A stretch of DNA of 64,000 bases, from the NCBI RefSeq assembly GCF_000423045.1, contig NZ_AUHF01000007.1, positions 248,001-312,000 on the forward strand. Reading direction: 5' to 3'. The notes below the pieces were generated by a model that worked only from the letters and a program-made list of their open reading frames with translations, made no database searches and was not told the DNA's origin. A program made the position numbers and the translations under genes. How positions within the stretch are numbered: position 1 is the first letter of the stretch; the number at the start of each line of letters is the position of its first letter. Source of the DNA: Christiangramia portivictoriae DSM 23547 (GTDB lineage Bacteria > Bacteroidota > Bacteroidia > Flavobacteriales > Flavobacteriaceae). Positions 3,840 to 51,970 of the stretch are shown in pieces.

Positions 3840-4646
3840 ATGAAGATTGCGATTTTAGGATGTGGATGGCTTGGTTTCGAGCTTGGAAAAGAATTGAGAG
3901 CATTGAATCATGAAGTAAAAGCTTCAGTAACAAGAAATGAGAAGTTTGTAGATCTTCACGCGGCGGGACTCGTTCCATATACTATCAAATTGTATGAAAA
4001 AGGGATACAGGGCGATATCAGGTCTTTTCTGGCGAAGTCTGACTGTATCGTGGTCAATATTCCTCCCGGCCTTCGAAAAAATCCTGAAGCCGACTTCGTT
4101 TCGAAAGTGAGGACCATTATTCCTTACCTTGAGAAAAGTTATTGTCCAAGGATCATTTTCGTAAGTTCCACTTCTGTCTATAAAAATGAACCGGGCTTTC
4201 CTGAAGTTAGCGAAAATACCGAGACCGATAACTCTTCTAATATCGCAGTACAACTACGCAATGCTGAGCTATTGCTGTTAAACAATGATAACTTTAAATC
4301 TGAAATTCTGCGCTTTGGTGGTTTAATTGGAGATGATCGTCATCCTGTGAATCAGCTTTCTGGAAAAAAAGACCTTAGTTCTCCTAAAGCCCCGGTAAAC
4401 CTGGTGCATCGTCGTGATTGCATCAAGGCCATTCTGGCATTAATTGAAAAACCTGCTACGAATTCTATTTATAACCTTGTATATCCAGAGCATCCTACAC
4501 GCGAAGAATACTACACGAAGATCGCACAGGACCGGCAACTCGAAGCGCCACATTTTAGTCAGGATAATGCTTCAGCAGGAAAGAAAGTAAGTTCAGAAAG
4601 ATTTCAGAAGGAATTTGATTTCAAATTTGAGCACTCCATTTATTAG
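3840..4646 (+). CDS. NAD(P)-binding epimerase-like protein (YeeZ-type)
   Basis: Protein of 268 residues with an N-terminal Rossmann fold (MKIAILGCGWLG, the GxGxxG loop at residues 7-12). It has an SDR-like VSSTSVY strand near residue 105 and a late YNLVYPEHPTREEYY segment typical of the extended SDR/NAD-dependent epimerase family related to E. coli YeeZ. The substrate is unknown. The gene follows the M28 peptidase with no spacing, and its TAG stop overlaps the TAA of the convergent gene inside the tetranucleotide TTAG. Confidence 0.8.
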   Translation: MKIAILGCGWLGFELGKELRALNHEVKASVTRNEKFVDLHAAGLVPYTIKLYEKGIQGDIRSFLAKSDCIVVNIPPGLRKNPEADFVSKVRTIIPYLEKSYCPRIIFVSSTSVYKNEPGFPEVSENTETDNSSNIAVQLRNAELLLLNNDNFKSEILRFGGLIGDDRHPVNQLSGKKDLSSPKAPVNLVHRRDCIKAILALIEKPATNSIYNLVYPEHPTREEYYTKIAQDRQLEAPHFSQDNASAGKKVSSERFQKEFDFKFEHSIY

Positions 4647-10638: not shown

Positions 10639-11877
10639 TTACTGTAGCATCATCAAAGCCTTTTTCAACGCTTCCATAAATGTATCGATCTCTTCTTTGG
10701 TATTGTAAAATGCGAAGGATGCTCGTACTGTTCCGGGAATCTTAAAGAAATCCATTACCGGTTGTGCACAATGATGCCCTGTTCTAACCGCAATCCCCAT
10801 TTTATCCAGCAAGGTTCCTATGTCGTATGGATGCAATCCATTTACGTTAAAGCTGATTACCGCCGTCTTCTCTGAGGCTTCGCCGTAAATTTTCACACCT
10901 TCTATTTCTTTCAATTTAGAAGTCGCGTAGTGAAGTAGTTCTTCTTCGTAAGCAGCAATTTCTTCAAAGCCAATCGCATTCATATAGTCCAGAGCAGCGC
11001 CAAAAGCTATACCACCGCAAATGTTTGGTGTACCCGCTTCGAATTTATGTGGCAAGCCAGCGTAAGTAGTTTTTTCAAAGCTTACTGTAGCGATCATTTC
11101 ACCACCACCCTGGTAGGGAGGTAACTTTTCCAGCCATTCCTGTTTTCCGTAGAGCATTCCAACACCTGTTGGTCCACACATCTTGTGCGCTGAAACTACA
11201 TAAAAGTCAACATCCAATGCCTGAACATTGGCTTTGATATGAGGTGATGCCTGAGCTCCATCTATTAAGACCGCTGCACCAGCAGCATGAGCAATATCGA
11301 TAATTTCCTGAATAGGATTCACCGTACCCAATGCGTTGGAAACATGGTTTACAAAAACAAGTTTCGTGCGATCGCTAATCAGATTTCTGTATTCAGAAAG
11401 AACCAGTTCCCCTTTTTCGTCCATAGGGATGACTTTCAGCCTGGCTCCGGTCTTTTCTGCCAGCATCTGCCATGGCACAATATTCGAATGATGCTCCATG
11501 GCTGAAACCAGAATCTCATCACCTTCCTTCAGCAAAGAAGAAAAACCATTCGCCACCAGATTGATTCCGTGCGTAGTTCCTGAGGTCATGATGATCTCAT
11601 GAGCATGTTCAGCATTAAAATGTCGCTGAATTTTTATCCTGGCCTGCTCATATTTATCTGTCGCTTCCTGAGAAAGCGCATGAACTCCACGATGAATATT
11701 GGCATTGTAGTTCGAATAATAATCCACGATCGCATCCATCACCTGCTTAGGTGTTTGTGCGGTCGCGGCATTATCGAAATATACCAGCGGATAGCCATTC
11801 ACCTTCCGGTCAAGAATTGGAAAATCCTGACGGATCGTTGCAACATCTATTTTACTGACCTGAGTTGACTGACTCAT
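10639..11877 (-). CDS. sufS: Cysteine desulfurase SufS
   Basis: PLP-dependent class-V aminotransferase-fold enzyme of 412 residues. It removes sulfur from cysteine as an enzyme-bound persulfide, giving alanine. The Schiff-base Lys232 lies in VSAHKMCGPTGVG, and the active-site Cys370 lies in RTGHHCAQP, the SufS-type (group II) arrangement with a short Cys loop. SufE, encoded nearby, is the expected sulfur acceptor. The gene follows sufD by about 20 bases in the operon. Confidence 0.96.
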   Translation of the reverse strand: MSQSTQVSKIDVATIRQDFPILDRKVNGYPLVYFDNAATAQTPKQVMDAIVDYYSNYNANIHRGVHALSQEATDKYEQARIKIQRHFNAEHAHEIIMTSGTTHGINLVANGFSSLLKEGDEILVSAMEHHSNIVPWQMLAEKTGARLKVIPMDEKGELVLSEYRNLISDRTKLVFVNHVSNALGTVNPIQEIIDIAHAAGAAVLIDGAQASPHIKANVQALDVDFYVVSAHKMCGPTGVGMLYGKQEWLEKLPPYQGGGEMIATVSFEKTTYAGLPHKFEAGTPNICGGIAFGAALDYMNAIGFEEIAAYEEELLHYATSKLKEIEGVKIYGEASEKTAVISFNVNGLHPYDIGTLLDKMGIAVRTGHHCAQPVMDFFKIPGTVRASFAFYNTKEEIDTFMEALKKALMMLQ

Positions 11878-11898
11878 CCTGAAATATCTTTTTATTAT

Positions 11899-13212
11899 CT
11901 ATAAATTGAAACCTAGCTCGACTCCAAGTTTTCCTGCGATAAGCTTGTTGATTCGCTTCTTCACTTCTGGAATCTTTACACTTTCCAGTACATTATTCGC
12001 GAAGGCGTACATAAGTAACCCTCTGGCTTCCTTTCGTGGAATACCTCTGGACTGCAAATAAAACAAAGCTTCTTCATCAAGCTGCCCGATTGTACAACCA
12101 TGGCTGCAACGCACATCATCTGCGAAGATCTCCAACTGTGGTTTCGAGTTGATCGTGGCCTTATCATTAGCCAGGATGTTGTTATTAGACTGGTAAGCGT
12201 TTGTCTTTTGCGCTTCCTTCTCTACCACTACTTTACCGTTAAAAACTCCAACTGCCTTATCGTCAAAAATACCTTTATAATTCTGGTGACTTTCACAGTT
12301 AGGCTCGATATGGTGTACGAGCGTGTTGTGATCTACGTGCTGCTTGTCTTCAATGATCGTAACTCCTTTCATGGTAGAATCAATACGTTCTCCGTTTTGA
12401 TAGAAGTGCAGGTTGTTTCTGGTTAATTTTCCACCAAAAGAGAAGGTGTGAACAGAAACATTACTTTCACCTTTTTGATTGATAAAAGTATTATCAATGA
12501 GTGAAGCAGATGATTTATCATTCTGGATCTTATAATAATCTATAATCGCCCTTTTATCAGCAAAGATTTCAGTAACAGAGTTGGTAAGCACCGGATGATC
12601 TGTAAGACTTTGGTGTCTTTCAATGATCTGCACATGCGAATTCTCATCCACGACAACCAGATTTCTAGGCTGTAACATTAGGGCAGACTCGTTTCCAGTA
12701 GCAAAATTGATGATTTGTATAGGCTTATCTGCCTGTGTATTCTTATGAATATGAATAAAAGCTCCTTCCCTGGCAAATGCTGTATTCAGTGAATTAAGGC
12801 TGGTTTTTGGAGCTACTTTATTGTAGTAATTTTCAATGACCGCACTGTATTTGTCTTTATTGAGAGCAGCAGACATGAGGCAAACATCGATCTTATCGTG
12901 TGTCGTTTGCGACAGATGAGAAGAATAGATCCCATCGATAAAAACCAGGTCATACGTATCGATATCATGTATAAGGTACTTCTTGATATCACGATACTCA
13001 ATCGCGTCTTCTTTCTTCGGAAAAACACTGTAATCATGTTTTAATACCGAATTTAGTGAGGTATACTTCCAATCTTCATCCTTTTTACCAGGAAAACCAA
13101 GCGTTTCAAAATTTTTGATCGCTTCATTTCTCAAGGTGTCAAGATTCTCGTTCGGGTCCAAATTTTCCTCAAAGGCTAAAAATGACGAGACCAATTTGTC
13201 TTTCAATTCCAT
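11899..13212 (-). CDS. sufD: Fe-S scaffold subunit SufD
   Basis: SufD of 437 residues. The right-handed beta-helix core spans roughly residues 130-380 and has the C-terminal SufB/SufD signature, with the histidine in RCSHGCTIGQLDEEAL that corresponds to the cluster-site His of E. coli SufD. It forms the SufBC2D scaffold with SufB and SufC on which nascent Fe-S clusters are built. It lies between sufC and sufS in the usual order. Confidence 0.95.
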   Translation of the reverse strand: MELKDKLVSSFLAFEENLDPNENLDTLRNEAIKNFETLGFPGKKDEDWKYTSLNSVLKHDYSVFPKKEDAIEYRDIKKYLIHDIDTYDLVFIDGIYSSHLSQTTHDKIDVCLMSAALNKDKYSAVIENYYNKVAPKTSLNSLNTAFAREGAFIHIHKNTQADKPIQIINFATGNESALMLQPRNLVVVDENSHVQIIERHQSLTDHPVLTNSVTEIFADKRAIIDYYKIQNDKSSASLIDNTFINQKGESNVSVHTFSFGGKLTRNNLHFYQNGERIDSTMKGVTIIEDKQHVDHNTLVHHIEPNCESHQNYKGIFDDKAVGVFNGKVVVEKEAQKTNAYQSNNNILANDKATINSKPQLEIFADDVRCSHGCTIGQLDEEALFYLQSRGIPRKEARGLLMYAFANNVLESVKIPEVKKRINKLIAGKLGVELGFNL

Positions 13213-39761: not shown

Positions 39762-41141
39762 TTAGTTACCTAAAACTCTGAAATTATCCAGATCGTAAGT
39801 GGTAGTTTTATCTGGAGCAGCTCCCAGGTATCTAAAGCCTATCCAGACCTCGCCCTCCAAACAGGAAATATCCAGTTCTGAAGTTTTGAATACATTTCCA
39901 GATCCTCCCGATGGACCGTATGGAATTGCGGCATCAAGCAACTTCCATTCTGTGGTTCTGGGATCACCAGTAAAATCCTGAGTAAAAAACACCTTTAAAA
40001 ATATGCCGTTATCATAGGACGCAAGCAAATCAAAACTTACCAGATTCGCCCCTGTCGAGCTAATATCTATGACAGGAGAGACTAGCCATGCCTCCAGCGG
40101 ATTCTCAAGTGTATTGTAAGCAGAAATTCGTAGTAGCCGGTTGCCGTTTACCATCGTGGGCGTAAAGCGTTTTTCACCTCCGCTCACATTAATATTGGTC
40201 CATTTTCTTGCCGAGAGGGTCGTATTGGATGTTACACCATCAAAATTCTCTTCCGAGATTACATTTCTGCTGAAATTTCCTCCTGAATCACATTTGAAAA
40301 ACTGGTCATCACATCGTTCAGCATCAAAATCCAGCGCGGTTGGATCGTTTACGATAAGCACAAAATGTTCATCATAATAATTGCGACTAAGAACCCCCTG
40401 AATTTTACCGGAGCCTGTGGGTAGCAATAAAGATCTAAAGTTTGCATAGGTACTTGTACTCAAAAATAGGGTCTCACCGCTTGTACAGCTTTCCAATTGT
40501 CTCTCACCATCATATTCATCATACCTGTGTGATGCAAATGAAAAGTTTTCTGTTTCTCTCACCAGATTAATATCGAATTGAATATCGTTCACTTCCACAT
40601 ATAAATTCTTGGTTTCTTCTGAGAATTCTGAAATGGCTAATCTCTTCGGAACAATTTCAGACGTTATTTCAGATCTAATGATAAAATCGTCGATCATAGA
40701 AGAGGGTATTGCCACCACATCTCCTCTATTCTGAATCCCTAGTTGCAAAACACCGTTATTAAATCCCAAACTGAGTCCGTCAAGCTTTACATAGACTTTT
40801 CTTCCGAAGTTATATGTCTGGTGCAGGGAATTATCGTCCACCAGAATTTGAATCCCAGCCTGAGGATTTTGAGGTTTATCCTGTACTACGAGCTTTTTGT
40901 AAAAATTTCCTCCAGCATCATCACTAATGACAAAAGCTTCAAACCAGGTATCGGTATCCCTGAAGTTATGAATTTCACCGGTTTCCATTTTGTAATTGCC
41001 TTTTACCGCCGCAATACTGGTAAAACTTCCATCTACAACGACAGGTTCTTCCAATAAACCGGGGATCTCGAAGTCATCTGTAGGCACGCAGGAAAGTAGA
41101 CTAATAGTAAGAAGATAACTAAGAAAAAATGTTCTGTTCAT
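39762..41141 (-). CDS. DUF5689 / choice-of-anchor lipoprotein next to TonB receptor A
   Basis: Lipoprotein of 459 residues (signal LLTISLLSC, lipidated Cys18). The N-terminal half (about 30-285) has the DUF5689 pattern: FEAFVISDDAGGNFYKK, then NGVLQLGIQN, a layout resembling OB-fold repeats. The C-terminal half (about 290-459) is a jelly-roll-like choice-of-anchor domain (ENFDGVT, then RKWTNINV, WLVSPVIDISS and YDLDNFRVLG). It lies three bases after the receptor gene, so the two are surely one operon. By analogy with SusC partners it may be a surface lid or substrate-binding protein. Nucleic acid as ligand is inference from the nearby nucleases. Confidence 0.8.
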   Translation of the reverse strand: MNRTFFLSYLLTISLLSCVPTDDFEIPGLLEEPVVVDGSFTSIAAVKGNYKMETGEIHNFRDTDTWFEAFVISDDAGGNFYKKLVVQDKPQNPQAGIQILVDDNSLHQTYNFGRKVYVKLDGLSLGFNNGVLQLGIQNRGDVVAIPSSMIDDFIIRSEITSEIVPKRLAISEFSEETKNLYVEVNDIQFDINLVRETENFSFASHRYDEYDGERQLESCTSGETLFLSTSTYANFRSLLLPTGSGKIQGVLSRNYYDEHFVLIVNDPTALDFDAERCDDQFFKCDSGGNFSRNVISEENFDGVTSNTTLSARKWTNINVSGGEKRFTPTMVNGNRLLRISAYNTLENPLEAWLVSPVIDISSTGANLVSFDLLASYDNGIFLKVFFTQDFTGDPRTTEWKLLDAAIPYGPSGGSGNVFKTSELDISCLEGEVWIGFRYLGAAPDKTTTYDLDNFRVLGN

Positions 41142-41144
41142 CGA

Positions 41145-43928
41145 TCAAAATCTAAGGTTTAAGTTTACAAAATAGCTGGTGCCGTTTCCATACCAGTATT
41201 TATTGCCGAAAATTGGAATCTCGCGATCCCTATCTTCCTTTAAAGTTCTATAATTGGCATTTCTAGCCTGTTCAAAACCACCGGTCCTGAAAGTAGTGTT
41301 CAAAGCATTATTGATACTAGCGAAGAAACCAAGATACTTGTCTCTAATTCTCCAGCTTTTACCTCCAATAATGTTGGTAAGAAAATAGGGATCAAACTGT
41401 TCCTGTTCCAGCAATTGCCTTGCGATCGTTGCGTCATATTCCACGAGCTCCAGACCGTCGTAGTCTTTTTGAAAGTTTGATGTTCTGGTTAATGGGCTCA
41501 CATCTATGAATGCACCGGTAAAATAGTTTTGCGAAATCCCAAACCACCAGTATGCTGGATCTCTGTATTCAAAACCAAGCTGAAAAGCAGATTGTGAACC
41601 ACCCGGCAAGCGATATCCTTTAAGAAAGGATCTTTCATAATCCAAATTATCGAAAGCGCCGGAGTAAAGACTTAGCGCCGGGTTGTTTTTATAAATAAAC
41701 TGTCCGCTTCCACCAGCGAGCTTTACTTTAATAGTGGAAGTAACCTGGTATTCTGAACTTAATTCGACGCCAAGCAATTGTTTGTCAATATCTGAAAGCA
41801 CTTCCTGAACAAATGCAGTGGAATTTTCTCTGCCAAGACCGGAAAGTCCATCGGTATAATAAAAAGAAACTTCGGTACTATTCGCAATTCGCTGAGCATA
41901 ACCTGTGATCCTAAGGTTAAAAAGATTGGTGCGATAACGGTAACTAAGATCTGAAGCTTTAATAATCTCTTCGGAGATGCCTGGAGCAAGCAAATTATTC
42001 TGCCTTGGATTGATAAAGGTGTTTTTAAGGTGTGGTGCTTTGGAATAAGCGGCCAGGTTTAATTCCAGGCTTTGACGTCCTGAAAATTTGTGCAGCAAAT
42101 GAGTTTTAAAGCCTGAAGTTAAAAAATCAACGTTCTGTGAGCTTCCGAATGAACTTACTGGAAACGCTTCATTCTGATAGTTTCCGAAACGTTGGTAGCC
42201 TGAGGCCGAGGCCTGTCCCGAAATACTCAGTTCCCAGCTTCGCCATTGCTTCTGTAGCTGAGCAAATACTTCAGCCTTTTGCGCAGTTAGATCATAATTA
42301 TACTTATAGTCCTGTCCTTCAAAAACTTTTCGATCAGGATTTCTGAGGTCATTCTGAGAAAATCCAGTAAAAACTTCAACATCCAGGAAGCTGGATGCAC
42401 CAAAAAGATCTTCGATCCTGGCGAAGTTCTGACTGTTCAGCGAAGAAATTTTGAAACTACTAATGAGCTGCAGACTGGAATCCAGTTGTAAGTTCAAAAT
42501 ACTACTCGCCACAAAATTTCGGTCTCTATTAACGTCTGCCGCGAGAGCGTACAATGCATCCGGACTAGTATTAGCTTTATAAATATCTGTCCAGTTAAGT
42601 TGTCCTTTATCAACTAATTCCTTTTCAGACAGATAAGCTTTCTGAAAATCTTCAAGGCCCTCAAATCTCAGGAAATATCCCGGCAACTTCTGGTAATAAA
42701 CCGGATCTGGATTTGATGCTCCTCCAAGATAGGTACGTTGTGATTCAAAATCAACAAAACTAGTACCTCCATAATCTATGCGGGTATTCGAAACTTCACC
42801 GAACTGGTAGGAAAGGTTGGTATTCAAATGCAAATTTTTAGATGGATTCCAGAAATGGCTGAGCATGAAGATGGGTTCTTGAATGTTCTTCAACCGGCTA
42901 TTCCGTATCTCATTCCCCTGCAATCCCCAGTATGGATTGTAACGACTTCCTTTAATTTCAACAACCTCTTGCGTAAGGGGAGCAGATTTTCCACGAAGCG
43001 TAGGCGTGTAGATCGCGGTTACATTTAATGAATGAGCAGGACTTATGATCTTTTCAAGTCCCAGGTAAACAGAATTTGCATCGAAAGGAGTTCCTTCCAT
43101 ATAGCCTTCCGTGGCATAACGGCGTCCTATGGAAAATGCGTAAAACCAGCCATTATTCTGTTCTCCGCTAGCATAGGTTGCCATTAATCTTCCAGTATAA
43201 CTACGGTTGGAACCTGAGGCTGTTATTCTACCACCGCTGGCAAACCGTGAAGCTCGCATTATAATATTCGTCGTACCGCCAAGACCTCCAAAATCATATT
43301 CAGATGGAGAGATACCCGACGTAAACACCTGGTTTCTCTGGACATCGTTAAGGCCTCCCCAGTTGCTCCACTGAGGTCTGCCATTATAGGCCTTATTCAT
43401 TTCAACACCGTTGATCATTAATGTTCCATATTCTGAACCGAGCCCACGCACTCTGTAAAACGTCTGACTAAAATCAAATGCGGCAGCGCTGAAATATGCA
43501 TCACGGGTGGACTGAAGAATTCCTGAAATATTATCAAAACCAGCTTCGTCATCCACCATATCCTCTTCTGAAAGGCTTATGGTATTCTGAAATGATAGAT
43601 CCTGGCTTGAATCTGGACTAAGCAAAATGGAGGAAAGGTCCAGTTCATCAACCCCAGTTAAATTAACGGATATTCTCTTCCCAAGATATCCCGATCTGCT
43701 GATGTGCAGAATAACCTCTTTAGATATAATACCATCAATCTCCAAAGAAAACTTTCCTTCAGGATCTGAGAATGTCTCTTCAAAAGAATTCTCTTTTGCA
43801 ATTTTAACCTGGGGTAAGGGCACCTGGGTAATTGCATCTATAATCCGACCACTTATGATCGGAGTTTGGGCATATAAACTTTGATATAGCAAAGAAAACA
43901 GACACGCCCAAAAACAGGTTTTATTCAT
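41145..43928 (-). CDS. TonB-dependent receptor A
   Basis: Outer-membrane receptor of 927 residues: a signal peptide (cut near YAQ), a carboxypeptidase-regulatory-like domain (about 24-110, ISGRIIDAITQVPLPQV), a plug domain (about 125-235), and a 22-strand-type barrel ending FVNLNLRF. The plug contains MINGVEMNKAYNGR and a WSNWGGL motif, shared with receptor B. No classical SusD follows; instead a DUF5689 lipoprotein does. It imports an unknown large substrate using TonB energy. Confidence 0.93.
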   Translation of the reverse strand: MNKTCFWACLFSLLYQSLYAQTPIISGRIIDAITQVPLPQVKIAKENSFEETFSDPEGKFSLEIDGIISKEVILHISRSGYLGKRISVNLTGVDELDLSSILLSPDSSQDLSFQNTISLSEEDMVDDEAGFDNISGILQSTRDAYFSAAAFDFSQTFYRVRGLGSEYGTLMINGVEMNKAYNGRPQWSNWGGLNDVQRNQVFTSGISPSEYDFGGLGGTTNIIMRASRFASGGRITASGSNRSYTGRLMATYASGEQNNGWFYAFSIGRRYATEGYMEGTPFDANSVYLGLEKIISPAHSLNVTAIYTPTLRGKSAPLTQEVVEIKGSRYNPYWGLQGNEIRNSRLKNIQEPIFMLSHFWNPSKNLHLNTNLSYQFGEVSNTRIDYGGTSFVDFESQRTYLGGASNPDPVYYQKLPGYFLRFEGLEDFQKAYLSEKELVDKGQLNWTDIYKANTSPDALYALAADVNRDRNFVASSILNLQLDSSLQLISSFKISSLNSQNFARIEDLFGASSFLDVEVFTGFSQNDLRNPDRKVFEGQDYKYNYDLTAQKAEVFAQLQKQWRSWELSISGQASASGYQRFGNYQNEAFPVSSFGSSQNVDFLTSGFKTHLLHKFSGRQSLELNLAAYSKAPHLKNTFINPRQNNLLAPGISEEIIKASDLSYRYRTNLFNLRITGYAQRIANSTEVSFYYTDGLSGLGRENSTAFVQEVLSDIDKQLLGVELSSEYQVTSTIKVKLAGGSGQFIYKNNPALSLYSGAFDNLDYERSFLKGYRLPGGSQSAFQLGFEYRDPAYWWFGISQNYFTGAFIDVSPLTRTSNFQKDYDGLELVEYDATIARQLLEQEQFDPYFLTNIIGGKSWRIRDKYLGFFASINNALNTTFRTGGFEQARNANYRTLKEDRDREIPIFGNKYWYGNGTSYFVNLNLRF

Positions 43929-44025
43929 GCAGTGCCTCGTAGTCGAAATATGGGATAATTTTAAATCATTTTTCTGTAATATTCAAAAAACCAGTACTTT
44001 AATTGCGGTCTAAAATGATAAAAAT

Positions 44026-45081
44026 TTGAAGAAATATATTACAGCGATTTATTTGGTAATTGGGCTATATCTGACGACTTCAGAAAACCTATATTGTCAG
44101 AATATGAGAGATTACCACATTGAAACCATTGCCTTCTACAATGTAGAGAACCTGTTCGACACCGTAGATGACACCCTCACGTTTGATGATGACAGGACTG
44201 CTCTAGGTAAAGACAACTGGACCGAGGAACGATATGCTGTCAAAATAGCCAATATTTCCCGCGTTCTCTCTGAGATAGGAACCCTGGAATCTAAAAAACC
44301 ACCTTTGGTGATCGGTCTTTGTGAGATTGAAAATAAGAAGGTTTTAGAAGATTTGATCGGCCACCCTAACCTTGCGAAATTCAATTACAAGATCGTGCAT
44401 TACGACTCTCCAGATGAGCGAGGTATTGATGTCGCCCTGCTGTATCGTTCGCAGTCTTTCGTAGTTACGAATTCACAGGCTCGTAAATTAATGATCTACG
44501 ATAACGATAAGCGGGATTACACCCGGGATCAACTTGTCGTGAGCGGTATGGCCATGGGACAGGAAACTCATTTTATAGTAAACCACTGGCCTTCCAGGTC
44601 TGGTGGTGAAGCTAAAAGCAGTTACAAACGTGAAAAGGCGGCCATGCTAAATAAACGTATCATTGATTCTATTTACCAGGAAGACCCAAAGGCAAGAATT
44701 ATAGGAATGGGAGATTTTAACGACGATCCTACTAATAAAAGCTTTAAAAAGTTCCTACAAACCAAAGCTGAAATCAAGAATTTGAAGGAAGGAGACCTGT
44801 ATAATCCTATGGAAAACATGCTCAAAAGAGGTCGCGGAACACTGGCATATCGTGATTCCTGGAACCTGTTCGATCAATTTTATCTTTCTGAAAGCTTACT
44901 GAGTAGAACTTCTGAAGGATTTCAATACTATAAAGCAGGAATTTTCAATGCGCCCTACCTCATCACTCAGAGCGGGCAGTACCGTGGCTATCCTATGCGT
45001 ACATATGGCAGCTCTGGCTACCAGCCTGGCTACAGCGATCATTTTCCTGTATATCTTTATTTGATTAAAGCTGTAGAATAA
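44026..45081 (+). CDS. Exported endonuclease/exonuclease/phosphatase-fold protein
   Basis: Protein of 351 residues in the EEP (DNase I-like) fold. Catalytic and metal motifs are visible: FYNVENLFDT (Asn39/Asn42), GLCEIEN with Glu100, NHWPSRSGG, GMGDFNDDP and a C-terminal SDHFPVYLY. A TTG start at 44026 is chosen because it gives a signal peptide (MKKYITAIYLVIGLYL), whereas the first ATG at 44104 removes it. It should hydrolyse phosphodiesters of DNA or RNA outside the cytoplasm. It is divergent from the receptor A operon and flanked by the endonuclease I gene cluster. Confidence 0.88.
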   Translation: MKKYITAIYLVIGLYLTTSENLYCQNMRDYHIETIAFYNVENLFDTVDDTLTFDDDRTALGKDNWTEERYAVKIANISRVLSEIGTLESKKPPLVIGLCEIENKKVLEDLIGHPNLAKFNYKIVHYDSPDERGIDVALLYRSQSFVVTNSQARKLMIYDNDKRDYTRDQLVVSGMAMGQETHFIVNHWPSRSGGEAKSSYKREKAAMLNKRIIDSIYQEDPKARIIGMGDFNDDPTNKSFKKFLQTKAEIKNLKEGDLYNPMENMLKRGRGTLAYRDSWNLFDQFYLSESLLSRTSEGFQYYKAGIFNAPYLITQSGQYRGYPMRTYGSSGYQPGYSDHFPVYLYLIKAVE

Positions 45082-45110
45082 AAAAAGCCTGGTCTAATAC
45101 CAGGCTTTTT
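45082..45110. terminator. Bidirectional terminator
   Basis: A 12-bp perfect stem (AAAAAGCCTGGT / ACCAGGCTTTTT) with a 5-base loop lies between two convergent genes. It has A and T runs on either side, so it can stop transcription in both directions. Confidence 0.9.
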
Positions 45111-45128
45111 TAACAGGATGTTCTTCTT

Positions 45129-45563
45129 CTAGAACCATGCGCTCCACGGAATTCTGGATAATACTACCAGAAAAGCGATTCCGTAGAAAATAGCCAGCAT
45201 CTTGAATTTTGGCTTTGAAGTAAGTTTCTTTTTATGTTTGGAGTAACCAATAGTGATCAATGCGATCGCGATGATCATCATTAATGGATGCTCCACCAGG
45301 TACAGTCGGGTAGTATCGTTACCCATAACTTCTCCCATACCACCTTCCCATCTCGCCATATTACCAGAGGTAAAGTAAAGTACAATTCCTATAAGCAATT
45401 GTATATGCGAAACGATTAGCGTAAATAAGGCTATTCTAAAATTAGTTGCACTGTATTCCTTGTTCGCCGCAAAACCAATGATTGCATTAAAAGTTGCAAT
45501 CAAGAGCATTATAAGAACCAGATAGGCCCAGTAAGAGTGTATAAATTGAACTGTTTGATACAT
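45129..45563 (-). CDS. Four-helix membrane protein, cytochrome-b-like, unknown
   Basis: Integral membrane protein of 144 residues with four hydrophobic helices (about 12-32, 43-64, 90-108, 122-140) and a short loop bearing NMARWEGGMGEVMG. Histidines (His9, His53, His92) in or near helices could ligate haem, giving the occasional cytochrome B label. It is a conserved flavobacterial protein of unknown role. It sits in the middle of the nuclease/receptor region, 32 bases downstream of the endonuclease I gene and in the same direction. Confidence 0.7.
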   Translation of the reverse strand: MYQTVQFIHSYWAYLVLIMLLIATFNAIIGFAANKEYSATNFRIALFTLIVSHIQLLIGIVLYFTSGNMARWEGGMGEVMGNDTTRLYLVEHPLMMIIAIALITIGYSKHKKKLTSKPKFKMLAIFYGIAFLVVLSRIPWSAWF

Positions 45564-45595
45564 ATAATCTTTATATAAATGTTATAAGTTAAAGG

Positions 45596-47233
45596 CTATT
45601 CCCAACGATTTTCCGCAGCATCACCACCCCAGATTAGTGTAGCGAGGAATGGATTATCTATGAACGGGTTTCGATTTCCCTGAGCTGCTTCTATCACATC
45701 ATTTCGCTGTAATTCGAAGGCTGAAACCGGATCTTCCCGATTCCATTTCAGAAAAAGTTCAAGATTCCCAACTTCGTCAAAGGAGTCTCCGTAGCTAAGG
45801 TTTACATACATTACCATTCTGGCAACATCACCTTTCCATTCATCTCCAGGAAACCAGCTATCACCGCCTACAAGCTTATATTCTCCACTTCCATCGGTAA
45901 ATGGGTAATTAAGCCTTTCAGAATTAACATCTACATCTGCAACCCTCAGTAAATGCAGGTCACTTACAGATTCCTCAGTATTTAAAAGGGATTGGGGATA
46001 AATGTGTTCTGTATTAAAACTTTCATCTCCATCCAGGTCACCTAACTGGAATTCATCATCTGGTCTAAGTTCACCAGAATAAACCAGTACAACCATAGAC
46101 TCGTCATCAAGAGCAGCATCGGCATCATATAAATAATCATGACGATCTGTGTAAGTCAGTCGGTTCGTATGTTGCGCATTCGTAAGATCTGAAAGCTCTG
46201 AATACAACAAGTCTGGATCTACCGTAAAGCTGGCATCTTGATAATACGATTTAAGATCATCAGGAACATTGAATTTAACAGCTTCTACGATGTTCACTGT
46301 GACTGTCGCAGTAGAACAAGTGGCATCTGCATCATCATCACAAATGGTGTAAGTGAAGCTATCCTCACCTAGAAAACCGGCCTGTGGAGTATAGGTTACA
46401 GTCCCATCATTATTCAAAACTATGCCTGCGTTACTTCCCGAATCATCTATGGAAGTTATGGTGGCATCATCAGTAAGATCATCATTATCCAGAAGTTTTG
46501 TGATCACTTCTTCGGAAGTTCCAATTTCTATAACCACGGTATCATCTGAAGCTACCGGTGAACCTTCATCTTCCACGGTCATGGTAACAGTAGCAGTAGA
46601 GCAATTTGGTGTATCATCATCATCACATAAGGTATACGTGAATGTATCCTGACCAGAAAAACTGGATTCTGGCACATAAAGAATGCTTCCGTCGTCCTGA
46701 AGTGTTACACTGGCGTTACCACTCGTGCTTTCTACTGAAGTGACTTGCGCATTATCTACCACCTGGTCATTATCAAGATGGTTGCTTATGGTGTAGGTCT
46801 TTCCTTCCTGGGTGGTATAGCTGTCATCGGCTGCTATTGGTTCCCCGGCATCACCTACGATAATGGTAACTACAGCACTGGAACACCTGTCTGAATCTCC
46901 AGGTACACAAATCGTATACGAGAAGGTATCATTTCCAGTAAAATCTAATGCAGGCTCATAGGTGTAGGTTTGATCACGATTATCTGTGATCGTTCCGCCT
47001 GCTTCAGTTTCAGCATCAATACTGGTGATGATCGCGTTATCCACGAGTTCATCGTTTTCCAGCAACATCGCTCTGTTGAAAGTGTAGGTTTCATTTTGAA
47101 CAGCAGATAGTTCATCTGCCGTTGCTACTGGATTTTCTTCTTCAACTGGAGGAACGGGAGTTGGTGTAGCATCATCATCACCTGAACAACCCAACATGAG
47201 CGCCAGCAAAAAAAGTCCGGTATATTTTTTCAT
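45596..47233 (-). CDS. Endonuclease I lipoprotein with three Ig-like repeats
   Basis: Lipoprotein of 545 residues (LLALMLGCSGDDD, lipidated Cys16). After a Pro/Glu linker come three cadherin/Ig-like repeats of about 92 residues (36-126, 131-221, 226-316). Then comes an endonuclease I (EndA-type His-Me finger) domain, about 320-545. The catalytic His410 lies in FNTEHIYPQSLL, followed by LHLLRVADVDVNSER. It should cut DNA, and perhaps RNA, non-specifically at the cell surface. Each repeat carries a pair of Cys around an acidic loop. The acidic tail after the lipid Cys fits surface export. Confidence 0.9.
   Translation of the reverse strand: MKKYTGLFLLALMLGCSGDDDATPTPVPPVEEENPVATADELSAVQNETYTFNRAMLLENDELVDNAIITSIDAETEAGGTITDNRDQTYTYEPALDFTGNDTFSYTICVPGDSDRCSSAVVTIIVGDAGEPIAADDSYTTQEGKTYTISNHLDNDQVVDNAQVTSVESTSGNASVTLQDDGSILYVPESSFSGQDTFTYTLCDDDDTPNCSTATVTMTVEDEGSPVASDDTVVIEIGTSEEVITKLLDNDDLTDDATITSIDDSGSNAGIVLNNDGTVTYTPQAGFLGEDSFTYTICDDDADATCSTATVTVNIVEAVKFNVPDDLKSYYQDASFTVDPDLLYSELSDLTNAQHTNRLTYTDRHDYLYDADAALDDESMVVLVYSGELRPDDEFQLGDLDGDESFNTEHIYPQSLLNTEESVSDLHLLRVADVDVNSERLNYPFTDGSGEYKLVGGDSWFPGDEWKGDVARMVMYVNLSYGDSFDEVGNLELFLKWNREDPVSAFELQRNDVIEAAQGNRNPFIDNPFLATLIWGGDAAENRWE
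46286..47128 (-). repeat. Three tandem Ig-like coding repeats
   Basis: Coding repeat of about 95 codons present three times within the endonuclease I gene. Each copy has an NDxxxDxAxITS start, a DGTVTYTP-like strand, DTFTYTxC and a CSTATVTV-like end. The copies are diverged at DNA level, so this is domain duplication rather than a simple DNA repeat. Confidence 0.85.
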
Positions 47234-47273
47234 AATTGTAAATTATAGTTGCAAATATCTGACAATTTAAGTC

Positions 47274-47308
47274 AAAAAAAAACCTCTTATCGTGAAGATA
47301 AGAGGTTT
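47274..47308 (-). terminator. Terminator of the receptor B / repeat lipoprotein unit
   Basis: A 12-bp perfect stem (AAACCTCTTATC / GATAAGAGGTTT) with loop GTGAA and a T-run on the minus strand lies 20 bases after the stop of the repeat lipoprotein. It separates this unit from the endonuclease I gene. Confidence 0.88.
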
Positions 47309-47328
47309 ATATAGATTGAGTTCTGAAC

Positions 47329-49047
47329 CTACTGGTTTACTACCCACATTCCACCTTCTTTGATAAGGCTTAGGCTTTCTGTAGTATTCGATCCATTATA
47401 GATATCGAAAGTAAGTAAGTACTTCTGTCCTTCTTCAGCATTTGGAGCGATCTCATTTAAAAGCGCCTGCATTGCAAGAAGTAAGTTGGCATCATTCCAG
47501 TAAGCGCTGGCTCCCGGACGACGGTCAAAGTTACCGTAACGATCTACACTTGCAAGTTGCGTTGAAAGTTCAGCATTTCCTGATAAAGCATCGGCAATGA
47601 TCGAGTAATCTGCAGAAGTAAGTGTATAGTTAATCGTGTTATCAGGCACCCACATTCCGTCTTCAAATCCAAACTGAAGAGCATCTGAAATTACACTAGG
47701 AATAGCCATCCATTTACCATTTTCGAAAGTAAAGTTAGCATACTCAGTCACAGTCGCTTCACCGTTATAGAAACGATATGCTACAGCTTTATATTCACCT
47801 TCTTCAGCATAAGGAAATTCTCTACCTAAGAAGATCGCGATTTTAGCAAGAGCTTCATCCTCGTCTCCAAAGTTGCTGAAACGCTGACCGAATTCTTCAG
47901 TATAAGAATTTTCAGGAAGCATGTAAGGCTCGTCCCAGTCTCCGTTAGTGTAAGCGAAAACTTTAGTTTCTTCAATAGTTGAAACTGAAGCATCCTCATC
48001 GATAGTGACAGCACCACCGTCAAGAACAAGGTTTACCACGATTGTAGCTACAGAACCATTATAAACTCTGTAAGTCAATACAAACTGGTCTCCATCCTGA
48101 GCTGCAGGAAATTGTTCGTTGATCACAAAAGCAAAAGCTTCTAAAAGCATAGCTTCGCTCCAGTAGTTGTCGCTGGTTTCTCTAACATCAAAACTTCCAA
48201 ACTGAGCAGCATTTCCAGCTGGTCCAGGATATGCAGCAGCGAATTCATCACCAATTGCATCATAATCTTCACTGGAAATTTCGTAAGAAGTACCACCAAC
48301 GGCTACATAGGTATTACCATCGAACTGAACAGTCATACTTTCAGTTCCAGAGCTACCATCATAGATTGCGTAAGTTACGTTGTATTGCTGACCGGCGATG
48401 TCACCAAATTCTTCTGAAATGGCCACACCAAGAGCTTCCACGATCATATCATTGCTCCAGTAAGCATCTCTGTCTGATCTTCTATCGAAGTTGCTGTATT
48501 GCGCAGCGCTAGATGCAGCATCTGGATATTTATCTCCAAGTTCGTCTCCAATTACATCAAAATCATCTGCAGTAAGCTCGTAAGCAATCTCTTCAGCAAG
48601 GATGTTGTAAGTAAGTCTAACATACTCTCCATCCTCTGCCTGTGGATACTTTGCGTCAAGGAAATCTGCAACATCACCCATTCCAGAGAAATAGTTTGTT
48701 GAAAGATCGATCATCCCGTAGTCTGAAGCAGATACTGAATAGTCCTGAACTCTAAGCGGATCGAAAAGATCAAATCCTACATTGATAATAGAACCTGCAC
48801 CATAAGTTGGGTAAAGGTCTGAAAGTAAAGAAGGAATTAAAGTTCTTGCATCTTCTACTGAACCGAAGTTTGGAAAGCTCTGTCCAAGTTCCTCGTAATC
48901 ATCTTCAGTAAGTACATAATCTCTCTCAGCAACAGCAAGCTGGCTATCCAGGTCGTTGTCGATCTCATCATGAATGTCTTCCATTGGCTCACAGCTCGTT
49001 AAAGCCAGACCTACAAAAGCCATTAGTACATAAAATGTCTTTTTCAT
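47329..49047 (-). CDS. Repeat lipoprotein partner of TonB receptor B, unknown family
   Basis: Lipoprotein of 572 residues (signal FVGLALTSC, lipidated Cys19, followed by acidic PMEDIHDEIDND). The whole mature chain is built from about six copies of one module of up to 100 residues (starting near 44, 103, 156, 255, 375 and 474). Its consensus contains Y-x-L-T-x-x-D-Y-x-x-I-G-D, then YP, FDRR, AYW, a helix with LLxA, FPxAxxGxxY, a YNGS-like hairpin and a final G-x-W. I do not recognise the family. It lies ten bases after the receptor gene, so it is very likely its surface partner in place of SusD. Very acidic overall. Confidence 0.85.
   Translation of the reverse strand: MKKTFYVLMAFVGLALTSCEPMEDIHDEIDNDLDSQLAVAERDYVLTEDDYEELGQSFPNFGSVEDARTLIPSLLSDLYPTYGAGSIINVGFDLFDPLRVQDYSVSASDYGMIDLSTNYFSGMGDVADFLDAKYPQAEDGEYVRLTYNILAEEIAYELTADDFDVIGDELGDKYPDAASSAAQYSNFDRRSDRDAYWSNDMIVEALGVAISEEFGDIAGQQYNVTYAIYDGSSGTESMTVQFDGNTYVAVGGTSYEISSEDYDAIGDEFAAAYPGPAGNAAQFGSFDVRETSDNYWSEAMLLEAFAFVINEQFPAAQDGDQFVLTYRVYNGSVATIVVNLVLDGGAVTIDEDASVSTIEETKVFAYTNGDWDEPYMLPENSYTEEFGQRFSNFGDEDEALAKIAIFLGREFPYAEEGEYKAVAYRFYNGEATVTEYANFTFENGKWMAIPSVISDALQFGFEDGMWVPDNTINYTLTSADYSIIADALSGNAELSTQLASVDRYGNFDRRPGASAYWNDANLLLAMQALLNEIAPNAEEGQKYLLTFDIYNGSNTTESLSLIKEGGMWVVNQ
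47332..48918 (-). repeat. Six-copy protein module repeat
   Basis: Tandem coding repeat spanning residues 44-572 of the lipoprotein. The fullest copies are at 156-254, 255-350 and 474-572. The first two are shortened, and the copy near 375 lacks the FDRR-AYW section. This indicates old internal duplication with later loss. Confidence 0.78.
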
Positions 49048-49057
49048 CGTGTTGTGT

Positions 49058-51592
49058 TTAGAAGTTTAGTTTAGCTCCTACAGTGTAAGTTCTTCCGAAA
49101 CCGTACCATACAAGTGCAGTACGTGCGTTGTTCTGAAGACCATTCTGTGCGTTAGCAATATATTCTGTATCTGTAATGTTATAAACGTTCGCATTCAAAG
49201 CAGCATCAAAACCAGCTACAGAGAAATCGTAAGATAGACCTACATCAAGTGTTCCGAAATCTGGAAGCTTCCAAGTTTCACCAGCATCAGGATTCGTACG
49301 GCTTACCGGATCAAAATCTGACCAGAAGTCACCAAAGTAGTTATAGTTAGCTCTTAATCTCATATCTGTTAGGAACTCATAGTCTACTCCAAGACCGGCA
49401 GTAGTTTGTGGCGTACCACCAACTTTAGTATCCTCAATGAAAAGGTTGATCTCATCAATTAGATTCTGCTCTTCGTCAAAGATCTGTACTCCTGTTACAT
49501 CATCTTCCCATCTAAAATCACCAAAAGAAGCGAAACCTGTGATAGAAAGTTCCTCGAAAGGACGGTATTCAAAATCAAGTTCAAGACCCTGGTGAATTGC
49601 ATTTACACCCAAGATGTTTGCAACTCCAAGAGATCCATCAGGATTGTTGTATGAGTAGATCAAAGATCTGTCTCTCCAGTTCGTTCTGTAAACGTTTACG
49701 TTAGCTCTCAATACAGAGCTTCTGTAAGTATATCCAAGTTCAGTACTAAAGATCTTTTGATTTTCAGCATCTGGGTTAAGGTCATTTACAAAGTTTAAGA
49801 ATACAGCATCAAAGAAAGGTGCTCTTTCAAAGTACCCGATGTTTGCGAATACACCACTAGTTCTGGTGAAGTTATAGTTCGCTCCACCTTTCAGCTGGTA
49901 TCCAAAGAAGTGTGCATAATCAGATTCCTGGTTAGGATCTGAATCAAGGTTGTTGAAATAATCAACACGCTTGTAAGAAGTGTTCGAAGCTGCAAGAGAA
50001 ACGAAGATATCAAGATCATCTTTAGAATATTCTCCCTGAAGGAATCCACCTTCCCAAAGAACGATACCGTCGTTGTTGTAGCTAATCTTGTCTCCAACCT
50101 TTGCAAGGTTTACAGGATTGTTTACGTTAGAATCATCAAAGTAGTACTGTCCACCAAGAAGATCTGTAACTTCCTGGAAGTGCTCTCCTTTATAGTATCT
50201 TAAATCGATCCCTGCAAGAAGTTCGATATCATCTGTAAGATCTGTAGATAAAGTAGAAAGTGCTCCATACCAGTTGTGGTCGTTTCTGGAAGCTCTCAAG
50301 ATAGTTTCTGAACCATCAGCTCCTCTTTCAATGTTCTCATCTACGATAAGATCAAGGTTTACCGGTTGAAGGTAACCATCTCTGTATTTAGAATCAAGAC
50401 CAAACTTATTAGTTCCGGCCCATCCACCACCTCCGCCAGTTCCAAAGGAAGCGTAAAGTGCAGTAGATAATTCAGTATTCTCATTGATATCCCAGTAGTG
50501 ATTCAGGGACATTTGTGGCTTATGGTAGAAGTTATCCTCGATATGAGTAACCTGACCATTTAAGTAACCCCAGTCTCCGTTAAATTTGATACCTCTCTCA
50601 CTTTCTCTATAAGTTTCGATAGTGTATCTGTTTTGGCGTTGCCCGTGTCTTTGTGGCGCTCCAAAAGCAGTGAAAGAAAGTTCGTGATCTTCACCAAGTT
50701 CTTTTGCGATGTTTACGAAGTAGTTGTACCCAATAAATTCAGTACCGTCTACATAACCATCTCCAACTGTTCTGGAAGCAGATACTGTTGCAGCAAGTCC
50801 ATTTTCAGACTTTCCAGTAGAAACTGTAGCACCAAATTTTGTGTAACCATCGTTACCAGTAGCCGCGTAGATATTTCCACCTTTCTCAGCATCTGTAGTT
50901 TTAGTTACGATGTTTACCGTACCAGCGATAGATGGAACAGCTACTTTAGCAGCACCCAAACCTCTTTGAGTTTGCATAGTTCTTGTAACATCAGAAAGAC
51001 CAGCCCAGTTACTCCAGTAAACACGACCATTTTCCATGTCGTTTACAGGAACACCGTTAATCATTACTGCGATGTTTTCTCCTTCAAAACCTCTCATTCT
51101 AAGCTCAGCATCACCAAAACCACCACCGGCTTTGTTAGCGTATACACCAGGAGTAGATTTTAGCACTTCAGGAAATTCCTGGTTACCAATCTTGGTTTCG
51201 ATCTCTGCAGCACTAATAGTTGAAACAGCTACTGGTGTTTTTCTGTCGATAGCAAGTGAGAAACTTGTTACCACGATCTCATCCAATGCGTTATCATCTG
51301 CACCCAATACGATCTGTCCAAGATCCTGAGTATCACCAGTTACATTGAATTTTACTTCCTTGGAAGTATAACCTACGAAGGTAATTTTGATAGTACCTTC
51401 AGAATCTGCAACGTTCAAAGTGAAGTTACCATCGAAATCTGTCATTGTACCATTGTTAGTACCAACTACCATCACATTAGCTCCTGGAAGTGGACCTGAT
51501 GTTTGGGAATCCATTACCACACCGGTAACAGTTCCTTGAGCAAAAATCGTAGCAGACGTTAAGAACATCGCTAAGAGTAATAATTTCCTCAT
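49058..51592 (-). CDS. TonB-dependent receptor B
   Basis: Receptor of 844 residues from Met at 51592, which gives a proper signal peptide (MRKLLLLAMFLTSATIFAQ). A carboxypeptidase-regulatory domain (about 20-105) precedes a plug (about 110-240) with EIVVTSF (TonB-box-like entry), RMRGFEGENIAVMINGVPV and YWSNWAGLSDVTR, and a barrel ending YTVGAKLNF. The same NGR-x-x-WSNW-x-GL-x-DV sequence occurs in receptor A, so the two are paralogues. The partner lipoprotein gene follows directly. Confidence 0.93.
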   Translation of the reverse strand: MRKLLLLAMFLTSATIFAQGTVTGVVMDSQTSGPLPGANVMVVGTNNGTMTDFDGNFTLNVADSEGTIKITFVGYTSKEVKFNVTGDTQDLGQIVLGADDNALDEIVVTSFSLAIDRKTPVAVSTISAAEIETKIGNQEFPEVLKSTPGVYANKAGGGFGDAELRMRGFEGENIAVMINGVPVNDMENGRVYWSNWAGLSDVTRTMQTQRGLGAAKVAVPSIAGTVNIVTKTTDAEKGGNIYAATGNDGYTKFGATVSTGKSENGLAATVSASRTVGDGYVDGTEFIGYNYFVNIAKELGEDHELSFTAFGAPQRHGQRQNRYTIETYRESERGIKFNGDWGYLNGQVTHIEDNFYHKPQMSLNHYWDINENTELSTALYASFGTGGGGGWAGTNKFGLDSKYRDGYLQPVNLDLIVDENIERGADGSETILRASRNDHNWYGALSTLSTDLTDDIELLAGIDLRYYKGEHFQEVTDLLGGQYYFDDSNVNNPVNLAKVGDKISYNNDGIVLWEGGFLQGEYSKDDLDIFVSLAASNTSYKRVDYFNNLDSDPNQESDYAHFFGYQLKGGANYNFTRTSGVFANIGYFERAPFFDAVFLNFVNDLNPDAENQKIFSTELGYTYRSSVLRANVNVYRTNWRDRSLIYSYNNPDGSLGVANILGVNAIHQGLELDFEYRPFEELSITGFASFGDFRWEDDVTGVQIFDEEQNLIDEINLFIEDTKVGGTPQTTAGLGVDYEFLTDMRLRANYNYFGDFWSDFDPVSRTNPDAGETWKLPDFGTLDVGLSYDFSVAGFDAALNANVYNITDTEYIANAQNGLQNNARTALVWYGFGRTYTVGAKLNF

Positions 51593-51970
51593 TTTTTTGT
51601 GTGTTTGAGTTTTGTTTAAAATTCGATGCAAAAGAAAACTAATTGTTCTTCTCTAACATTATCTCAATGTTAAAATATTTAACGTACAGAAGTTTAACAT
51701 TTCAACAAATTTCGGCGCAATATACTGCTAATTAGAGTAAAACAAAATATTATGTTAAATGGAATGATTCAAAATAAGCTCCAACAATGTTAAAGACGTT
51801 AAATCGGGCAATAAATAGGAGATAAAATTTCAGATATATTAATTTTTACACCTATAAGAACAGATTTTTGTGGTATTCCTAATTGGGAATTATTAGCACT
51901 TCCATAGAATATATTTTTAGGTGGGCCGTAATTAATCATCAAACCAGGGAGCGGTTGAAATTTCCAAATA
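51593..51970. promoter_or_regulatory. Receptor B leader with clustered GTTAAA / AATGTTAA elements
   Basis: AT-rich intergenic stretch without a gene. GTTAAA or its complement occurs six times in 135 bases (51669, 51678, 51693, 51754, 51789, 51798). AATGTTAA or its complement occurs at 51666-51673, 51694-51701 and 51786-51793. A perfect 15-base palindrome, GTTAAAATATTTAAC, lies at 51669-51683, and AACATT/AATGTT flank a 5-base gap at 51655-51671. A further near-palindrome (ATTCC..GGAAT) lies at 51875-51890. The cluster begins about 60 bases before the receptor start. A role as operator is inference. Confidence 0.5.

Follow-up and report, generated by a model that had tools for sequence, protein, structure and literature searches.

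The closest described relative of the locus reported here is a pair of adjacent genes in Riemerella anatipestifer. In the published screen of 3000 transposon mutants of that species for natural transformation (Huang et al. 2021; PMC8459023), of which we draw on excerpts, RA0C_RS04915 is described as an outer-membrane protein with a carboxypeptidase-regulatory domain and the adjacent RA0C_RS04920 as carrying DUF5689, DUF5017 and choice-of-anchor J domains; markerless deletion of either gene brought transformation below detection, and the authors proposed the pair as the entry point and called the step from double-stranded DNA (dsDNA) to single-stranded DNA (ssDNA) unknown. Here we report a putative counterpart of this pair in Christiangramia portivictoriae DSM 23547, in a 64,000-nucleotide stretch of contig NZ_AUHF01000007.1 (positions 248,001 to 312,000; hereafter the window, to which all coordinates refer). 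TonB-dependent receptor A, a DUF5689 lipoprotein and an exported EEP-fold nuclease form a conserved core at 39762-45081, which probably carries out the outer-membrane step of natural transformation without a pilus. The role of the pair in Riemerella is already in print; new are the identification of the pair in C. portivictoriae, the nuclease linked to it and a test of co-occurrence with competence genes.

Other described systems share parts of this anatomy. SusC/SusD glycan loci likewise combine a TonB-dependent receptor with a surface lipoprotein and an adjacent exported enzyme, but in the window the lipoprotein is DUF5689 rather than SusD, the enzyme is a nuclease, and receptor A matches neither the SusC/RagA model nor any NCBIfam family; Pfam and NCBIfam scans of nine proteins around the locus found no SusD family. 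The extracellular endonucleases ExeM/NucH are also exported EEP-fold nucleases and give a weak match to the window nuclease (NF033681, 28.1 bits), which nevertheless falls far below the cut-off of 300, is without their N-terminal or sorting domains and belongs to another Pfam family (Exo_endo_phos_3). The type IV pilus/secretin competence systems of Vibrio and Neisseria, outlined in part in PMC8459023, share the later steps in kind (ComEA-like HhH, ComEC, ComF and DprA), but the C. portivictoriae genome has no match to the secretin PF00263, and entry across the outer membrane would instead be through a TonB-type receptor. Among 100 genus-level genomes of the family, this one included, 81 are without a secretin match and 19 have one.

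The Riemerella pair and the window pair agree in domains and gene order. Receptor A is a TonB-receptor-like outer-membrane protein with a carboxypeptidase-regulatory domain (CarbopepD_reg_2) just below its cut-off, and it is followed after 3 bp by the DUF5689 lipoprotein. Both settings combine an adjacent receptor-like protein and DUF5689 lipoprotein with an absence of type IV pilus genes and the presence, in the genome, of ComEC, DprA, HhH, DUF1343 and ComF-like genes. In Weeksellaceae, the family of Riemerella, the partner lipoprotein of one locus (L122) passes the cut-off of 475 for NF052645, 'M949_1556 family lipoprotein', at 717 bits; M949 is a Riemerella tag. What the window adds is the EEP nuclease, unmentioned in the excerpts of PMC8459023; its gene diverges from that of receptor A across a spacer of 97 bp, which presumably houses the promoters of both.

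Receptor A was sought in the 100 family genomes, of which 95 gave a match at E 1e-3; we counted 89 as having it (E 4e-98 or better, a threshold of our own choosing), and counted six weak matches (E 3e-41 or worse) as lacking it together with the five genomes without a match. Eighty loci from the 88 other receptor-A genomes were searched with the window proteins, and nuclease counts required at least 1.5 kb of upstream flank. The DUF5689 lipoprotein lies downstream of receptor A on the same strand in all 80 loci, within 600 bp in 75. Flank is sufficient at 76 loci, and at 72 of these a divergent EEP nuclease lies no more than 600 bp from receptor A, across a spacer of 37-253 bp (median 125). 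For the remaining eight receptor-A genomes, coordinates place a PF19580 nuclease beside receptor A in five (G058, G077, G079, G086 and G021) and none beside it in G016, G057 and G037, in two of which nucleases are listed on other contigs. A separate observation concerns several Flavobacterium-type loci (L177-L181, L183, L184 and others), where about 630-660 bp between receptor A and DUF5689 leave room for one small gene; a DUF5017 gene between the receptor and DUF5689 genes is reported for F. columnare in the excerpts of PMC8459023.

The same arrangement recurs outside the family. Among the matches listed for 148 genomes of the order, strong ones (E 1e-189 or better) occur in 42, comprising 20 of 21 genomes of the window's own family, all 19 of Weeksellaceae, to which both Riemerella and Chryseobacterium belong, and one each in families f2, f3 and f10, with none in the other families sampled. 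At 14 Weeksellaceae loci the DUF5689 lipoprotein is present in every case and the nuclease in all 13 with flank, while the three loci from f2, f3 and f10 have the nuclease in two and a weak DUF5689 match in two. Among the best 80 named loci, none of them titled Riemerella, 76 have the nuclease upstream of receptor A, two of the four exceptions lying at contig ends, and 78 have DUF5689 on the downstream side. Beyond the order, the nuclease adjoins receptor A at eight of all 11 loci (divergently in six, immediately upstream in the same orientation in two), and ten have a related lipoprotein downstream. In one family, f25, the nuclease gene at L225 (7261-8292) and L226 (7258-8292) immediately precedes that of receptor A in the same orientation, an operon-like arrangement, and L226 carries a second EEP gene at 11616-12632. 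In the f3 locus L131, the lipoprotein downstream of receptor A (1966-4473) has two lamin-tail-domain stretches and a sub-cut-off DUF5017, with no DUF5689 in the Pfam scan.

The predicted model of receptor A comprises a barrel and plug (mean pLDDT 81.2; best PDB match PqqU, E 2.7e-25), and we propose it as an outer-membrane DNA channel; a sequence search of solved structures gave three matches, each confined to its N-terminal domain. None of 160 receptor A proteins contains a simple TonB-box pattern, which does occur in receptor B of the window and in 17 of 34 receptor B proteins; in the family alignment a conserved acidic stretch, ISLSxxELDxDE, takes its place at about residues 105-135 of receptor A. 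This absence is a motif count and no proof of independence from TonB, and published tonB effects point the opposite way: according to the excerpts of PMC8383284, tonBA and tonBB mutants lower transformation in R. anatipestifer, the tonBB effect being ascribed by the authors to iron.

We propose the DUF5689 lipoprotein as a DNA-binding lid of receptor A, although DNA binding itself is not proven by its predicted model (mean pLDDT 88.5), in which a beta-rich N-terminal domain precedes a C-terminal jelly roll. A lipobox-like stretch was recognised by eye, and a simple lipobox pattern matches 68 of 80 relatives. The original prediction had described this partner as DUF5689/choice-of-anchor; Pfam bears out the DUF5689 part, while the anchor domain, left uncalled by Pfam and NCBIfam in the window protein, appears as a structure match of the jelly roll to gingipain cleaved-adhesin and Eph ligand-binding domains, and relatives of the protein score choice_anch_J above cut-off.

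All five motifs sought as typical of the EEP fold are present in the nuclease, whose export signal was assigned by eye. Four of the motif patterns occur in 68-73 of 76 related EEP proteins and the strict GDFND pattern in only 25; a sequence search of solved structures gave no match. A tree was built from one in three of the linked EEP proteins, the 15 unlinked paralogs of the family and 14 distant paralogs; in it, all 15 from the family form a clade of their own apart from the linked proteins (support 0.998). Our literature search by titles and openings of abstracts, with preprints and most subscription papers outside its scope, returned no paper tying an EEP nuclease to the receptor pair.

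Later steps of transformation would be served by genes elsewhere in the C. portivictoriae genome, which encodes ComEC (a 677-aa frame with Competence and DUF4131 domains), DprA, NamZ_N (formerly DUF1343), a ComEA-like HhH protein of 287 aa with an N-terminal hydrophobic stretch and three HHH_3 stretches, and a ComF-like match of 85.9 bits, under the curated cut-off of 233.55. Both the DUF1343 and HhH genes have Riemerella counterparts, by domain, that are essential for transformation according to the excerpts of PMC8459023. The NamZ_N/DUF1343 and ComEA-like HhH genes lie about 12 kb apart (G000:C2:349697-350308, 361740-361922). Of the 100 genera, 85 have both receptor A and ComEC, seven have neither, four have receptor A alone and four ComEC alone (92 concordant; Fisher 5.8e-6), so that seven of the 11 genera without receptor A are also without ComEC. 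The four genomes with receptor A alone are 82-87% complete, and those with ComEC alone comprise three with short ComEC frames (G046, 544 aa; G064, 465 aa; G092, 459 aa) and one with a full frame (G032). The clearest case of joint loss is G030, a 3.6 Mb genome rated complete, which has neither receptor A nor ComEC; its single HhH match lies in a 716-aa frame, and its DprA match is partial.

In the proposed scheme, DNA at the surface would bind the DUF5689 lipoprotein, seated on receptor A much as SusD is on SusC, and receptor A would pass it across the outer membrane; the ComEA-like HhH protein and ComEC, encoded elsewhere, would then deliver one strand to DprA and RecA in the cytoplasm. The EEP nuclease would act outside the inner membrane, cutting or trimming DNA to generate ends or the strand that enters, or to remove DNA that has stalled. 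A wider proposal, to which we give somewhat less than an even chance, is that a large group of Bacteroidota uses a modified TonB-type receptor, rather than a pilus secretin, to import transforming DNA, by a three-part machine in which the DUF5689 lipoprotein holds DNA, the receptor carries an acidic stretch in place of a TonB box, and the nuclease makes an importable end or strand and so supplies the missing dsDNA-processing step, as a counterpart of EndA.

Several observations weigh against a transformation role for the core. The proposed orthology of the pair with RA0C_RS04915/RS04920 is drawn from domains, gene order and family, and the window lipoprotein scores 203 bits over nearly the full length of NF052645, under the cut-off of 475. 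Receptor A is patchy in the phylum, being found in only 40 of 247 genomes at E 1e-70. In genome G032 receptor A and DUF5689 are absent although ComEC is present in full, as is the EEP nuclease, and genome reduction confounds the co-loss, the association having p 0.35 in the 18 genomes of up to 2.3 Mb and 0.048 in the 82 larger ones; the smaller genomes give p 0.009 only if the three short ComEC frames count as absent, and short frames also occur in the fragmented receptor-A genomes G016 and G079. In print, as far as the excerpts go, Flavobacterium johnsoniae was not transformable in a published test (PMC7965970), an EEP nuclease is unreported among the 3000 Riemerella mutants, and 'endonuclease' is used there only for restriction enzymes (PMC8459023). 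Nor could OB-fold homology be demonstrated for DUF5689, which is not proven to be an OB-fold nucleic-acid-binding domain; this was suspected because the DUF5689 model also gives a signal in the control genome of Bacillus subtilis and because Foldseek placed a tandem-OB HIN200-dsDNA structure 15th among the 50 shown, where an E of 1.2e-5 is offset by a TM of about 0.2 and an rmsd of 15 A. Comparison of the DUF5689 profile with the N-terminal parts of ExeM/NucH-type proteins, which had low power with single sequences or a pair as targets, gave a best probability of 0.9% (reversed-sequence controls 0.1-0.4%), and Pfam found no DUF5689 in three ExeM/NucH-type proteins. As a side observation, at the G032 locus (L134), from which receptor A and DUF5689 are gone, the EEP nuclease, a four-helix membrane protein (4TM), receptor B, pgi and M23 are still in place.

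The original prediction had read the whole 12 kb as one surface locus for degrading and importing nucleic acid, perhaps as a nutrient. That a receptor, lipoprotein and nuclease act together on nucleic acid at the surface gains support for the core, from the linkage of the trio and from the requirement for the Riemerella pair in transformation. As to purpose, gene intake by transformation is likelier than nutrition, and we regard it as improbable that the trio is a foraging system in which the nuclease cuts surface DNA and receptor A and its lipoprotein import the fragments for phosphorus, nitrogen or bases. In favour of foraging, an exported nuclease stands beside a receptor and surface lipoprotein, DNA foraging by sediment bacteria has been published (PMC8289736, in excerpt) and transformation of R. 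columbina improves when peptone or phosphate is left out (PMC7965970), but in R. anatipestifer the omission of phosphate lowers transformation rather than raising it (PMC8383284). None of the nine scanned proteins belongs to a nucleotidase or phosphatase family, and the seven joint losses of receptor A and ComEC are not predicted by a purely nutritional system. A nutritional purpose is not supported, because the known phenotype of the matching pair is loss of genetic transformation (PMC8459023). A single uptake machine serving both food and transformation, with the nuclease setting the share of DNA that arrives intact, is a little less probable still: the anatomy would be the same and might explain a nuclease that otherwise seems wasteful in a pure transformation system, but the nutritional half is without direct evidence.

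It is very improbable that all 12 kb form a single locus for nucleic-acid utilisation, with receptor B, the six-module lipoprotein and the endonuclease I lipoprotein as members. The genes are co-located in the window, and the four-gene arrangement that includes all three recurs in four of the 80 family loci (L038, L044, L046 and L049), but on the expected side receptor B (350 bits or more) is found in 34, the six-module lipoprotein in 14 and the endonuclease I lipoprotein in six, against 45 for M23 and 33 for pgi, which are unrelated neighbours. The 14 Weeksellaceae loci have no match for the endonuclease I or six-module proteins, 4TM, pgi, M23 or TDO, and their receptor B matches fall on receptor A, with none of its own. 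On these counts we reject the 12-kb set as one unit. Conserved gene order across Flavobacteriaceae, the check named in the original prediction, holds for an exported nuclease linked to a receptor with a non-SusD lipoprotein partner, and fails for receptor B, the six-module and the endonuclease I lipoproteins, which lie outside the conserved core. The 4TM protein (57 of 80 loci) is a frequent neighbour in the family and probably not part of the unit. TDO is on the expected side in 38 loci, and yaeR and a 635-aa outer-membrane protein in none; the downstream flank was fetched to 4.5 kb, mostly short of the mfd position, so that absence of mfd is uninformative.

Open reading frames and the Pfam and NCBIfam scans confirmed all seven predicted genes at their coordinates (Table 1). 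The frame of receptor B opens at a TTG at 51631, the originally predicted end being the ATG at 51592, and the protein scores 103 bits against the SusC/RagA model (cut-off 368). Beside it, the six-module lipoprotein, an undescribed protein, appears from its co-occurrence to be a receptor partner of its own, serving receptor B in a subset of genera.

Table 1. Features of the locus, in window coordinates.
Feature	Positions	Strand	Evidence
DUF5689 surface lipoprotein with C-terminal jelly roll	39762-41141	-	PF18942 176.8 bits (cut-off 28.6)
TonB-dependent receptor A	41145-43928	-	Plug 30 bits (cut-off 23.9); CarbopepD_reg_2 30.5, just under cut-off 32.2
Spacer between divergent starts of receptor A and EEP nuclease	43929-44025		97 bp; sequence
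Exported EEP-fold nuclease	44026-45081	+	PF19580 Exo_endo_phos_3 393 bits; TTG start
144-aa hydrophobic four-helix membrane protein (4TM)	45129-45563	-	Only sub-cut-off Pfam matches
Ig/cadherin-repeat lipoprotein with endonuclease I domain	45596-47233	-	Endonuclease_1 PF04231 109 bits; Big_9/cadherin-like repeats, three stretches
Six-module repeat lipoprotein	47329-49047	-	Without Pfam or NCBIfam family
TonB-dependent receptor B, ordinary TonB box	49058-51592	-	Plug, barrel, CarbopepD_reg_2; EIVVT motif

For members of the phylum that bring DNA across the outer membrane without type IV pili, the nuclease found beside the receptor pair in two families and at eight of 11 distant loci is a direct candidate for the step from dsDNA to ssDNA. 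It should also be recognised that a receptor, lipoprotein and nuclease side by side need not mean a nutrient locus, and the trio offers a marker for genomes that may be competent.

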